This document shows, piece after piece, positions 58,577-62,985 of a stretch of DNA of 64,000 nt. This DNA is from Bacillota bacterium (GTDB lineage: Bacteria; Bacillota; Sulfobacillia; JAJZYS01; JAJYTV01), in contig JAJYSJ010000001.1 in assembly GCA_021793645.1 (NCBI GenBank), positions 1 through 64,000 on the forward strand, read 5' to 3'. The position numbers and the translations under genes were made by a program. The notes beneath the pieces are model-generated. The model searched no databases. It worked only from the letters and a program-made list of their open reading frames with translations, and was not told the DNA's origin. Each line of letters begins with the position of its first letter. Position 1 is the stretch's first letter.

Positions 58577-59209
58577 CTAGTAGCCAATCTGCAGGAGCTG
58601 CGGTGCACCGGACGGAGGGAAGAGCGCCGCCGCGTATCCGCCCGCGTAGCGCGCGACCACCAGCGTCCCGGCGGGGAAGGGCCACGCGACGACGGAGCGC
58701 GGGGACATCTCGGCTCCGGCGCCTTTGAGCCAACGTTCGACGCGGATGCGCAGGCTCGCCGGCAGGTCGCGTTCGGGCTCCTGCGCACGCGTGCTTCCCT
58801 GCGGCGGCGCGAAGGGGATCTCCCAGCCGCTCTGGTTGGCCGCGATGCTGCCCTGGCTAAGGCTGTGGGGACCGAACGTGTCCTGGGCGACCAGGATGGC
58901 CCTGCCGTCGCGGCCGAGGACCATCAGGACGGCATCCTGACCGGTGACGATCGAAGATCCCTTCGCAACCGTCACGCGCAGCGGCGTCGTCGCGGTGTAG
59001 AGGGCCATGACGCGGTAGCCTGGGAAGAGCGCATGGGCGGCGTGCTGCGCGGCATGCACCACGTCGGAATGCGACAGTGCGTACGGGGTGAAGTTGCGCT
59101 GCAGGACGCTCTGCTGCACGAGATGCAGTCCGAGCGCGGAGGCCGCGCCCAAGAGCATCAAGGCGGCGCCGCATGCTAGCGCTCCTGTCAGTCTGTGCGC
59201 CGCGACCAT
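58577..59209 (-). CDS. Cassette copy A, gene 3: exported protein of unknown family
   Basis: A 210-residue protein with one N-terminal membrane segment (ALACGAALMLLGAASALGL) and an extracytoplasmic region. ATG 59209 follows GAGGAGG by 7 bases and overlaps the gene-2 stop (TGATG). Recognisable internal features are LFPGYRVMAL, AVLMVLGRDGRAILVAQ and VAWPFPAGTLVVARYAGGYAAALF. I do not recognise the family. A decayed homologue lies at 60261-60912, so the gene belongs to a duplicated three-gene unit. Confidence 0.75.
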   Translation of the reverse strand: MVAAHRLTGALACGAALMLLGAASALGLHLVQQSVLQRNFTPYALSHSDVVHAAQHAAHALFPGYRVMALYTATTPLRVTVAKGSSIVTGQDAVLMVLGRDGRAILVAQDTFGPHSLSQGSIAANQSGWEIPFAPPQGSTRAQEPERDLPASLRIRVERWLKGAGAEMSPRSVVAWPFPAGTLVVARYAGGYAAALFPPSGAPQLLQIGY

Positions 59210-59940
59210 CACCAGGCCTCCTCGTATTCGGCCGAAATGCCCGCGTTGCTCCTGGTGATGACCCAGGCCTGATCGCGGCCGAGCGACACGTAGAGGAGGT
59301 AGCCCGGGAAGAGCACGGGGCCGTAGAAGGCGCCCTTGGGAGCCTGCACGCGCGCGCGCAGGGCGGCGAGAGACGGCTCCCGGCCCTGCGGCGTGTAGTC
59401 GCTGTTGAACTGGAGGTTCTCGAGGTGGATCGTCCCGCCCTGCCACCTCGCCTGCAGGCGAAAGCGCGCGCTGCCAGGCGAGCGCAGCCAGACTTCGTAT
59501 GTGCCGCTTGTGGATTTGAGGGAGCGGCCGACGACAAGGGAGGGGAACGCCGTGTGGAAGGCCGCCGCCGCGCGCCGCGGCAGGGGGGAGAAGTGCAGCG
59601 AACGCTGCGGCGACGTCATCGCCGGCTGCGGGGAAGCGGTCGACAGGCGGATTGGGCCGGTGGAGTACGGCGGCCACAGCATGGTAAAGGCGCTGCCGCA
59701 GTATGCGAGCGCAAGCAGCAGGAGGCCTATCCAGAAGACCTGCGGCAGGCGCCCAGGCGTTGCCGGTGGCTGTCCCGAGACGGCCAGCCAGACGGCGCTT
59801 GGCAAACCGACCACGAGAAGCGCCAGCAGGATGAAGAAGGCTGGCGTCAGGCCGTTGCCCTGGGGCGCAGGCACCGCGAACATCGCGATCGCCGCCGCTA
59901 CGATCGCCACTGTGAGCGCGATGCCGATCGTGCGCCTCAC
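59209..59940 (-). CDS. Cassette copy A, gene 2: multi-pass membrane protein with external domain
   Basis: A 243-residue protein with three hydrophobic helices in the first 90 residues, then an external domain containing FPSLVVGRSL, TYEVWLRSPGSARFRLQA and GPVLFPGYLLYVSLGRDQAW. GTG 59940 overlaps the SHOCT gene stop; its own stop overlaps gene 3. The recurring FPGY motif is shared with gene 3, suggesting the external domains are related or work together. The family is not recognised. A homologue broken by a frameshift and a stop is at 60912-61618. Confidence 0.75.
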   Translation of the reverse strand: MRRTIGIALTVAIVAAAIAMFAVPAPQGNGLTPAFFILLALLVVGLPSAVWLAVSGQPPATPGRLPQVFWIGLLLLALAYCGSAFTMLWPPYSTGPIRLSTASPQPAMTSPQRSLHFSPLPRRAAAAFHTAFPSLVVGRSLKSTSGTYEVWLRSPGSARFRLQARWQGGTIHLENLQFNSDYTPQGREPSLAALRARVQAPKGAFYGPVLFPGYLLYVSLGRDQAWVITRSNAGISAEYEEAW

Positions 59941-60173
59941 GGCTGACCGCCGCGCAGCGTGTGCACCATCTCGTCGAACTCTGTGCGGCTGATCTCTCCC
60001 GACGCGTAGCGCCGTCGCGCCGTCTCCTCCGGTCCCAGGGCTGCAGGCTGCGGGCGGAAGTACTGCACGAGCCCGACGATCACGAGCACGAGCCCGACGG
60101 GCAAGGCCAGCACGAGGAACTCCATGAAGAGCGTGACGATCGACAGCCAGGTCGGTATGCCGGTCCCTGTCAC
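59937..60173 (-). CDS. Cassette copy A, gene 1: SHOCT-domain membrane protein (78 aa)
   Basis: A 78-residue protein: a short external start, one long membrane helix (WLSIVTLFMEFLVLALPVGLVLVIVGLVQYF) and a C-terminal SHOCT domain (GPEETARRRYASGEISRTEFDEM). SHOCT domains are short oligomerisation modules often at the ends of membrane or phage-defence-associated proteins. GTG 60173 is 8 bases after GGAGG. It is first in an overlapping three-gene set. A second copy at 61615 is identical at 53 of 78 positions. Confidence 0.8.
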   Translation of the reverse strand: MTGTGIPTWLSIVTLFMEFLVLALPVGLVLVIVGLVQYFRPQPAALGPEETARRRYASGEISRTEFDEMVHTLRGGQP

Positions 60174-60260
60174 GGCGCATACCTCCAGTCTCTGTCAACA
60201 GTTTATCGTTGGTGTCAGGAACTGGGAACCCTCATGCGACGAAGCGCGCGGCCGCTCCTG

Positions 60261-60912
60261 CTACCCGCCAGACGGGGTCGGCTGCAGGAGGTGAGGGAGG
60301 GTCTGGATGATCTGCGGGCCGCTTTCAGACGCTGTGAAGAGTGCCGCGACGGCCTGCCCGTGGACGCTTGCGACGACCAGCGCACCGGCAGGGAAGGGCC
60401 AGGCGGCGCTGAAGTGCGCCGCTCCGCCGTAGGCCGCCAGCCATACGGCGACTTCGGCGTGCAGAGCAGGGGACAGTGCGGGCTCCGCCAGCCTGCGGAC
60501 GCCGGCGCCAGTACAGGCGGGAAGATGATCTGCCAGCCGGTTTCGTTCTGCGCGCCGACCTGGACGGGCGCCACCGGACCCATGACCTCCTGCGCGACGA
60601 AGCTGGCTCTGGCGTGGCGTCCCAGGACGATCAGCACCTGGGTCGTCGCGATGGTCCTTTCTCCGTTCTGGCCGACGACGTAGCTCGGAGTCCTAGTCGC
60701 ATCAAGGCCAAGGATCTGGTAGTTCGGGAAGAGCGCCCGCGCTCCGCGCTGCGTGGCGGTCGCGACCTCTCGGGGCGTCAAGGCGCGGTAGGCCTGGGCG
60801 TTCATCGCGGTCTGCACGATGTTGCCCCCGATGAGGAGAGCGCCCCGACGAGGATCAGCGCGACGCCGGCGATCAGGGGCGCAACGCCGGGGCGGCCTGC
60901 ATTCCGCCGCAT
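60261..60912 (-). pseudogene. Cassette copy B, gene 3: frameshifted homologue
   Basis: Starting at ATG 60912, which overlaps the upstream stop as in copy A, the frame reads MRRNAGRPGVAPLIAGVALILVG. It must shift near 60835-60845 to continue as IGGNIVQTAMNAQ...LIVLGRHARASFVAQ, and shift again near 60495-60510 to reach SAAWPFPAGALVVASVHG and the TAG at 60261-60263. The three segments align in order with copy A gene 3. Two frameshifts indicate a pseudogene, unless they are assembly errors. Confidence 0.7.
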
Positions 60913-61618
60913 CACCAGGAGAACCCTTGGACGCCAAGTGTACGTTTGCTCACGGCCCAGGCTTCGTCGTGCGGCAGGGAGACGTAGAGCACGTAGCCAG
61001 GGAATTGGACGGGACCGTATGCCCTTCACGGCAGGTGAACGCGCCCGCGAATCACAGAGGCGCTCAGAGTGTTGCCGGGCTGCGCTGCGTACGCCGTATT
61101 CATCGCCTGGTTCTCCACCGTGATCCGACCCTTCACCCAAACCGCCTGCAATTGGAAGGTACTGCTCCCTGACCTACGCAGCCAGACCTCATAGGCCCGT
61201 CCGTTGACGCGAGAGAGCGCCCGACGACGAGGTCCGGGAAGACCGCGCGGAATTCCGTTGTAGCGTCCTTCGGCAACGGGGCAAAGCGCAGCGAGTCCTG
61301 CGGACGTCCGCTGCCCATGGGAATGGAAATGGGCGCTGCGGCTCCAGGCGACAGACCCGCGACGCCCAGCAGGATGTCGAGAAACCCGAGCGCGAGCAGC
61401 GCGATGCCGATCCAGAAGACTCGTGGAAGGCGGCGCGGCACCGCTGCGGGCCGGCTGCCCAGCGAGAGCCAGAGCGCGCTCGGCACCCCGACGAGCAGCA
61501 GTAGGCCGAGGAGCACCATGAGCGGAGGGAAGCCGACGCTCTGCCAGCGCCAGACCAGGAGGGCGGCGCCGATCAGCACCGCCGCTGCGCCCATCGCCTG
61601 CACGAGGACCCGGTTCAC
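60912..61618 (-). pseudogene. Cassette copy B, gene 2: frameshift plus stop codon
   Basis: From GTG 61618 the protein follows copy A gene 2 (VGVPSALWLSLGSRP, RLPRVFWIGIALLAL) to FPDLVVGRSL. A frameshift near 61210-61222 is needed to continue as GRAYEVWLRRSGSSTFQLQA. An in-frame TGA at 61026-61028 then precedes GPVQFPGYVLYVSLPHDEAW and the natural stop at 60912-60914. The parts align with copy A throughout. A frameshift and an independent nonsense codon argue for true decay. Confidence 0.72.
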
Positions 61619-61851
61619 GACTGCTCGCCGCGCAACGTGCGCAGCATCTCCTCGTACTCCGAGAGGCTGATCTCCCCGGCGGCATAGCGGTGCTTCAGCG
61701 TATCCTCCGGGCCGACCGCCTGAGGCACGGGACGGAAATACTGCACCAGGCCGACGATGACGAGCACGAGACCGACTGGGATGGCCAACACGAGGAGCAT
61801 CGTCATCACCGTGAGGATCGATAGCCAGGGTGAGATTCCGGTACCCGTCAC
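61615..61851 (-). CDS. Cassette copy B, gene 1: SHOCT-domain membrane protein (78 aa)
   Basis: A 78-residue intact homologue of the protein at 59937. It has the same layout: MTGTGI start, one membrane helix, and a SHOCT domain reading GPEDTLKHRYAAGEISLSEYEEM. GTG 61851 lies after GGAGGG. Its stop overlaps the start of the broken gene 2. It is divergent from the response regulator, with a 119-base shared upstream region. Being intact while its partners are broken, it may still be expressed. Confidence 0.78.
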   Translation of the reverse strand: MTGTGISPWLSILTVMTMLLVLAIPVGLVLVIVGLVQYFRPVPQAVGPEDTLKHRYAAGEISLSEYEEMLRTLRGEQS

Positions 61852-61970
61852 AACGCGCCCTCCAATCTCTGACAGAAGTCTACTGCACGCAGCGCGCCCG
61901 CAGCGACAAGAAATTGTGAAGGTTGGTTCTTTGCGGTGAGAGGCGGGTCGGGTCATGCCATAATGCGGAC

Positions 61971-62666
61971 ATGGAATTGCACCTTGTGGTGGTCGAGGAC
62001 GACCAGCTGATCGGGCGCAGCGTCGCATCCCACCTGCGGGAACAGCTTGGCGCAGTCGTGGACGTGTTTGCAGGACTCGGAGGAGCCTCGGACGCCCTGG
62101 CTGCGGCGGACCTCGTCATCCTTGATCTTCAGCTTGCGGACAGCGACGGAATGGAGACTGTCCGCCGCGTGCGCATCACCGCGCCGGCCGCCTTCCTGAT
62201 CGTCATCACGGCGCGGGGGGCAATCTCGGATCGCGTGGAAGGTCTGCGTGTCGGGGCGGACGACTACCTCGTGAAGCCCTTCAGCCTCATGGAGTTGGAG
62301 GCTAGAGTGGAAGCGCTCCTGCGCCGCCGGGCCGGGATGTCGCCGCCCTCGGCATCAGACCTCGTGTGGGAGCGCTCTAGCCGCCAGGTCCTGAAGCGAG
62401 ACACCACTCTATCGCTCACGCCGCTCGAGTACGCGGTCTTCGCCACGCTAGCCGAGCGGCCAGAGCAGGCCCTCTCACGCGTAGAACTCCTGCGCGACGT
62501 GATCGGACCGAACGTCTACGGCTATGAGCGGGTGATCGACGTGCATGTGGGGCACCTGCGCAAGAAGTTGGATCCGGAAGATCCCTACCGCTATATCGCA
62601 ACGGTGCGCCACTACGGCTACCGCTGGGACGCAGCCCCGCCTGTGGAGATGCGCGATGCAAGGTGA
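61971..62666 (+). CDS. OmpR/PhoB-family response regulator
   Basis: A 231-residue two-component regulator. The receiver domain has the acidic pocket at D10-D11, the phosphorylated aspartate D52 (VILDLQLAD) and the lysine in DDYLVKPF. The C-terminal winged helix (LSLTPLEYAVFATLAE, then VIDVHVGHLRKKLD) is of OmpR type. It is divergent from the SHOCT cassette and may regulate it. CATAAT at 61959-61964 is a possible -10. The adjoining downstream frame looks like a decayed kinase. Confidence 0.92.
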   Translation: MELHLVVVEDDQLIGRSVASHLREQLGAVVDVFAGLGGASDALAAADLVILDLQLADSDGMETVRRVRITAPAAFLIVITARGAISDRVEGLRVGADDYLVKPFSLMELEARVEALLRRRAGMSPPSASDLVWERSSRQVLKRDTTLSLTPLEYAVFATLAERPEQALSRVELLRDVIGPNVYGYERVIDVHVGHLRKKLDPEDPYRYIATVRHYGYRWDAAPPVEMRDAR

Positions 62667-62985
62667 ACGGGAGGGCGGCATCCTAGTGCTCGTGTACAGC
62701 CTTGCGCTTTTGGCCGCCGCCTGTACCACAGCGCCTATGGTGGCTGCTCGCCCGGGCCGCCTTCTCGATCGGAGCGCTTGTCTGGCTGCGCCTGCCCGCT
62801 CGCCGGCAAAGGCTCCAGACGGCGGCCGCGTTTCGGGCGCCGGCGGTCGTCTGCACGTGAGCTATGGCGAAATGCGACGGATGTTCGAGGCTGCAGTCGC
62901 CCTGTCGCATGCAGAGCAGCGCGCCTAGTTCGCCAGACTGCGCCACCGTTAGAGCGAACGCCCGCCGCTGCCGCGGCGCGCCTTG
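62656..62985 (+). pseudogene. Possible remnant of the cognate histidine kinase
   Basis: ATG 62656 overlaps the regulator stop, as usual for a regulator-kinase pair, and opens MQGEREGGILVLVYSLALLAAA. In other frames follow LWWLLARAAFSIGALVWLRLPARRQR, like a second membrane helix, then EMRRMFEAAVALSHAEQRA. After a TAG comes FARLRHR, reminiscent of a kinase phosphoacceptor box. No ATP-binding domain is present. The pieces fit a kinase broken by frameshifts and a 3' deletion, but each is short. The 90-residue intact frame ending at 62928 could instead be a small protein. Confidence 0.35.

Follow-up and report, generated by a model that had tools for sequence, protein, structure and literature searches.

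A three-gene SHOCT membrane cassette divergent from a two-component system in a class of Bacillota: a candidate autoregulated signalling module and its decay

To our knowledge, histidine kinases that lack a sensor domain depend on partners in the membrane, of which few kinds are known. In the LiaFSR system, the kinase is inhibited by LiaF in the absence of stimulus (PMC7191749), and the surroundings of Lia/PSP partners repeatedly contain two-component systems and SHOCT-like domains (PMC11237479). In BceRS-BceAB, an OmpR-type regulator is combined with a sensor-poor kinase that depends on a membrane partner (PMC10314905). In the PepSY modules, the kinase is a direct target of DbfQ (PMC12714742), and UipA is a single-pass protein with tandem PepSY domains (PMC8963506).

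In this study, a locus in a 64,000-nt stretch of Bacillota DNA (positions 1 to 64,000 of contig JAJYSJ010000001.1, referred to in full as the window) was compared with these systems. The locus contains two cassettes, copy A and copy B, each with genes for a SHOCT membrane protein and for two larger proteins, g2 and g3. The first-pass annotation had placed both in the span 58577-61851. The genes described there were confirmed, but the span was too short because a response regulator and a kinase remnant belong to the unit of copy B (Table 1). That account was incomplete: it overlooked the divergent two-component genes, and also that their kinase has been lost and that the surviving copy A has no regulator box.

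Table 1. Positions of the cassette genes, the two-component genes and the intergenic elements in the window
Feature	Position	Strand	Description
Copy A g3	58577..59209	minus	210 aa, intact; one membrane helix and two predicted external alpha/beta domains
Copy A g2	59209..59940	minus	243 aa, intact; three membrane segments and a predicted external alpha/beta region
Copy A SHOCT membrane protein	59937..60173	minus	78 aa, intact; regulator box absent upstream
Copy B g3 pseudogene	60290..60912	minus	three frames, two frameshifts
Copy B g2 pseudogene	60915..61618	minus	one frameshift and one TGA
Copy B SHOCT membrane protein	61615..61851	minus	78 aa, open frame intact
Cassette promoter -10 TAGACT	61877..61882	minus	22 nt from the box; TACACT in the other eight loci
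Direct-repeat box CTTCACAATTTCTTGTC	61905..61921	minus	putative response-regulator operator; single copy in the genome
Regulator promoter -10 CATAAT	61959..61964	plus	
OmpR-type response regulator	61971..62666	plus	intact, now without a kinase
Histidine kinase remnant	62656..62904	plus	codons 1-16; 21-51 in another frame; 256-277

Decay of the regulator-linked cassette in the window

In copy A, the genes follow the order SHOCT, g2, g3, neighbouring genes overlap at their stop and start codons, and all three frames are free of lesions, as the first-pass annotation had stated. Because the proteins have homologues in related genomes, the cassette genes are not chance open reading frames. In copy B, g2 was found to be split over two frames (61618-61196, then 61208-60915), with the TGA at about 61026-61028, and g3 over three (about 60912-60835, 60832-60506 and 60527-60294). 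The lesions counted earlier, one frameshift plus a TGA in g2 and two frameshifts in g3 beside an intact SHOCT gene, were all recovered.

The regulator of the window has the receiver and winged-helix Trans_reg_C domains of the OmpR family. Compared with the kinase of G001, a genome of the same genus, the kinase remnant lacks codons 52-255 (about 204), so that the core is gone, and it also carries a frameshift. An orthologous OmpR-type regulator is divergent from the SHOCT-g2-g3 cassette in five relatives from the window's own bacterial family, f1 (G001, G005, G006, G008 and G009), and such a regulator with its kinase also faces the cassette in three genomes (G127, G128 and G129) of f10, a second family of the same class. 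The neighbourhood survey proposed with the first-pass annotation thus placed the cassette beside a two-component system in eight loci outside the window. In the five f1 relatives, the kinase gene overlaps the regulator gene and has 285-294 codons; HisKA and HATPase_c are the only Pfam domains of the kinases, and their two membrane segments lie a few residues apart. If intramembrane-sensing histidine kinases are defined by HisKA plus HATPase and by two membrane helices whose linker is shorter than about 25 residues, with any further sensor domain absent, the kinases of the relatives have this structure, the window's own being a remnant.

The gene neighbourhood in G001 is that of the window throughout: permease, ABC protein, a protein presumably of the DUF554 type (a family name given by eye), cassette, regulator, kinase and miaB. 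Since the two neighbourhoods match, the native cassette linked to the regulator is copy B, and the kinase decayed along with g2 and g3 of this copy. It is very unlikely that copy B and the kinase are really intact and that the lesions are assembly or sequencing errors. Over 2.6 kb of a 359-kb contig, three genes carry several independent lesions, among them the loss of some 204 kinase codons, next to a clean copy A, and the cassette -10 departs from the consensus in the window alone. In favour of such errors, the assembly is a draft in 94 contigs, frameshifts are a common type of error, and the frames of the copy B SHOCT protein and of the regulator are still open.

Related arrangements were observed elsewhere. 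In f10, the kinase frame of L050 (G129:C160, 2891-3193) stops after about 100 codons, and the kinase may have been lost in G129 as well. In G002, only a g3 fragment is left between miaB and the DUF554-type gene; the place of the module (L035, G002:C331, 4100-9040) also holds two unrelated genes beside this fragment, one for a protein of 700 aa in which TSDGG/DGG.TW motifs recur, the other for a 392-aa lipoprotein-like protein. A second locus in the window's genome (L005, G000:C34, 1969-5229) encodes an OmpR-type regulator and a HAMP kinase, and two SHOCT membrane proteins alternate there with exported Met/Gly/Tyr-rich proteins beside the two-component system.

The box between the divergent units

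OmpR-family regulators bind 11-bp direct repeats. The intergenic region shared by the divergent units contained a common box of this kind, an 11-bp direct repeat of the form CTTCAC-N5-CTTSWC, in all nine loci; it reads CTTCAC-N2-TTT-CTTG[AT]C in the six f1 loci and CTTCAC-N5-CTTCAC in f10. The distance from the end of the repeat to the TACACT-like -10 of the cassette was exactly 22 nt in 9 of 9 loci. The regulator -10 on the other side of the box lay at an equal distance in five of the six f1 loci, with 1 nt more in the sixth. When the region upstream of copy A was searched for the direct-repeat box, it was absent.

In whole-genome searches, the f1 form occurred once per genome in seven module-bearing genomes, each time beside the cassette, and the f10 form once each in G127, G128 and G129, always at the module. 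The f1 form was absent from the whole genomes of G002, G003 and G004, as was the f10 form from four other f10 genomes, and the reversed f1 pattern gave no match in whole-genome searches. Because the patterns were read from the module loci themselves, their recovery at these loci is no surprise, and the evidence lies in the lack of a second site and in the constant spacing. With the strict form of the box, the regulon looks closed, the pair controlling the cassette and probably itself.

In all six f1 loci (window 61959-61971, L033, L029, L030, L032 and L034), about 6 nt separate the end of the regulator -10 (ATAAT core) from the ATG. Therefore, the regulator mRNA is probably leaderless.

Cassette protein families and the origin of copy A

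The SHOCT domain (PF09851, a C-terminal two-helix motif) was matched by 8 of 8 orthologues at E<=1e-3 (best 1.9e-7); in the Pfam scan, the two copies of the window scored 23.3 and 26.7, just under the cut-off of 27. Pfam and NCBIfam scans gave no family for g2 or g3, and the earlier description of the two larger proteins as unrecognised was borne out. The structure prediction and remote-homology searches suggested at that time yielded models and no named family. The g2 model (pLDDT 52, low) has three hydrophobic segments followed by an alpha/beta region, and the g3 model (pLDDT 71, with two domains mostly near 90) has one hydrophobic segment followed by an alpha/beta region. Against PDB sequence profiles, g2 matched best to 3due, a putative periplasmic protein, with E 0.035 over the first alpha-beta region, and g3 had no match; Foldseek searches with both models returned nothing under E 0.05. 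By these searches, g2 and g3 are new, unannotated protein families.

Three candidate identities were rejected. UipA (7ath) as the fold of g2 had a Foldseek E of 1.6 with a poor model and was not taken as evidence. PDGLE matched one of seven g3 members at E 0.004, below the cut-off. For PepSY, hhalign of g2 and g3 against 30 PepSY domains gave a probability of at most 1.4%, neither protein had a Pfam match to PF03413, and a genome scan for PepSY missed the locus.

According to the first-pass annotation, g2 and g3 share an FPGY motif. This motif is invariant in g2 (F211-Y214, 7 of 7 alignment rows), but at its position the g3 family varies (LFPPY, LFAPY, LFRGD), and in the g2-g3 profile alignment the FPGY of g3 sits opposite FPSL of g2 and not opposite FPGY. 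Alignment of the two families with hhalign gave E 1e-4 with the membrane segment and 0.003 without it. The score of 24.8 exceeded those of all 60 column shuffles (18.3 or less), and the signal vanished when the f10 rows were left out. This is a hint that g2 and g3 may be distant paralogues.

When g2 was used as a query, a match was found in 8 of 61 genomes, namely, the window's own, G001 and six of the second genus in the family. Four more members, all in f10, came from a profile search through 154 genomes of the class, and 398 genomes drawn from across the phylum yielded no further credible match. Two weak phylum-level g2 matches in frames of 522-554 aa covered mainly membrane segments and were treated as chance. 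A contig scan had the record of G004 as its sole find. The cassette occurred without an adjacent two-component system in copy A, G004 and G117. The cassette in G117 (L053, G117:C269, 2600-3786) has no linked two-component system; it follows a transporter-like gene at the edge of a short contig.

In the tree, copy A was sister to the cassette of G004, a genome of another genus, with support of 100/100, and trees with copies A and B as sisters were rejected (AU p<1e-9). Copy A was 76%, 72% and 57% identical to the G004 cassette in SHOCT, g2 and g3, respectively, versus 68%, 45% and 38% to copy B. For comparison, the Rqc2-type protein was 55% identical between the window's genome (G000) and G004, and regulator-linked g2 proteins of one genus were 36-41% identical to those of the other. 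An orthologous regulator was not found in G004 (best match 40%), where the cassette is placed between amino-acid permease-like and mutase-like genes (named by eye). The simplest account is that copy A was probably exchanged horizontally between genera; it could also be an old paralogue that was lost elsewhere.

The first-pass annotation had called the cassettes tandemly duplicated. The units do lie in tandem, adjacent and equal in orientation and gene order, and their SHOCT genes are 74% identical in DNA over 242 nt. A recent duplication in the window's genome, with one copy decaying under relaxed selection, is nevertheless scarcely credible given the grouping of copy A with G004 at 100/100, the rejection of sister trees by the AU test (p of 1e-10 or less), the g2 identities (45% between the copies, 72% between copy A and G004) and the box, which is present at copy B and absent at copy A.

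Proposed function and comparison with known systems

We give an even chance to the reading that the locus is a self-contained, autoregulated membrane-signalling module with a spare cassette copy, in which the cassette senses the envelope and sets or damps the kinase, and that this module is being dismantled here. When intact, it would consist of a sensor-less two-helix kinase and an OmpR-type regulator facing the SHOCT-g2-g3 operon. The regulator would bind the 11-bp-spaced repeat between the units, driving the cassette and probably its own operon as well, and would act from this single site in the genome. The SHOCT tail is predicted to be cytoplasmic and the g2 and g3 domains to lie outside, and the cassette proteins most likely form an envelope-sensing complex in the membrane that sets or dampens the activity of the kinase. 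The sensor-less kinase may read the membrane or its partners; as the partner complex, the cassette would close a feedback loop. In the window's genome, the kinase is gone, as are g2 and g3 of copy B; the regulator has been orphaned, and the diverged copy A is retained.

The linkage of regulator and sensor-less kinase to the cassette in eight loci, the constant spacing and single occurrence of the box, and the joint decay of the kinase and of g2 and g3 of copy B in the window support this reading. The still open frames of the copy B SHOCT protein and the regulator weigh against it, as do the low confidence of the g2 model and the G129 kinase frame that stops after 100 codons. The envelope-sensing role suggested earlier gains support from the conserved kinase and regulator neighbours and the operator-like box, and it stays a presumed role. 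As copy A and in G004 and G117, the cassette persists with no two-component system next to it; it can therefore be useful by itself, and for this reason the reading of a plain effector is nearly as good as the sensory one. The cassette would then be output only, acting in envelope repair, resistance or transport when switched on by the kinase and regulator; the kinase would sense the membrane alone, and the cassette would have no sensing role. We regard this as quite possible, although somewhat short of an even prospect. The box fits such control of the cassette, and cassettes without a kinase would be unexpected for a pure kinase partner. However, the apparent lack of a second regulator site of this form confines kinase, regulator and cassette to one another, the kinase has no sensor domain, and the kinase decayed jointly with g2 and g3 of copy B.

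In its wider form, the sensory reading is that a sensor-less kinase is served by SHOCT-g2-g3 as a sensory complex not described before, the whole forming a five-gene closed loop in only one class of Bacillota, and that the cassette also circulates alone and can replace a regulated one. This proposal is tentative and is held with slightly less than even confidence. Three candidate kinase partners are offered by comparative genomics, the one-site regulon is testable by a single reporter, and the window's genome, in which the kinase was lost together with g2 and g3, is a natural experiment. If true, the proposal would place two unannotated protein families and a small SHOCT membrane protein in a functional context for the first time.

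The proposed loop may be comparable to LiaF/LiaS or BceAB/BceS. As in LiaFSR and Lia/PSP systems, a kinase with little or no external domain, a regulator and membrane accessory proteins are found in one locus. In contrast to LiaFSR, the cassette is divergent from the two-component genes, and the accessory proteins differ, the members of the g2 and g3 families having no Pfam match to LiaF/LiaI, Toastrack or PspC. With BceRS-BceAB, the module shares the OmpR-type regulator and the sensor-poor kinase, but no ABC transporter is among its conserved neighbours; the ABC genes found close to the locus, both here and in G001, do not accompany the module in the other genus. In DbfQRS and UipRSA, the gene for an exported or single-pass protein adjoins the two-component system, sometimes on the opposite strand, and in eight loci outside the window an exported protein gene likewise adjoins the kinase and regulator genes. 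In outline, g3 also resembles UipA in having one helix and two alpha/beta domains. Unlike these modules, the locus has no detected PepSY, a three-gene cassette with SHOCT and a kinase without a sensor domain. LiaFSR, BceRS-BceAB and the PepSY modules work comparably, yet the defining partner of each was sought at the module and was not found. The module is real and unannotated, has new partner families and is being lost in the window's genome; it is a variation on the theme of a sensor-poor kinase plus a membrane partner rather than a new category.
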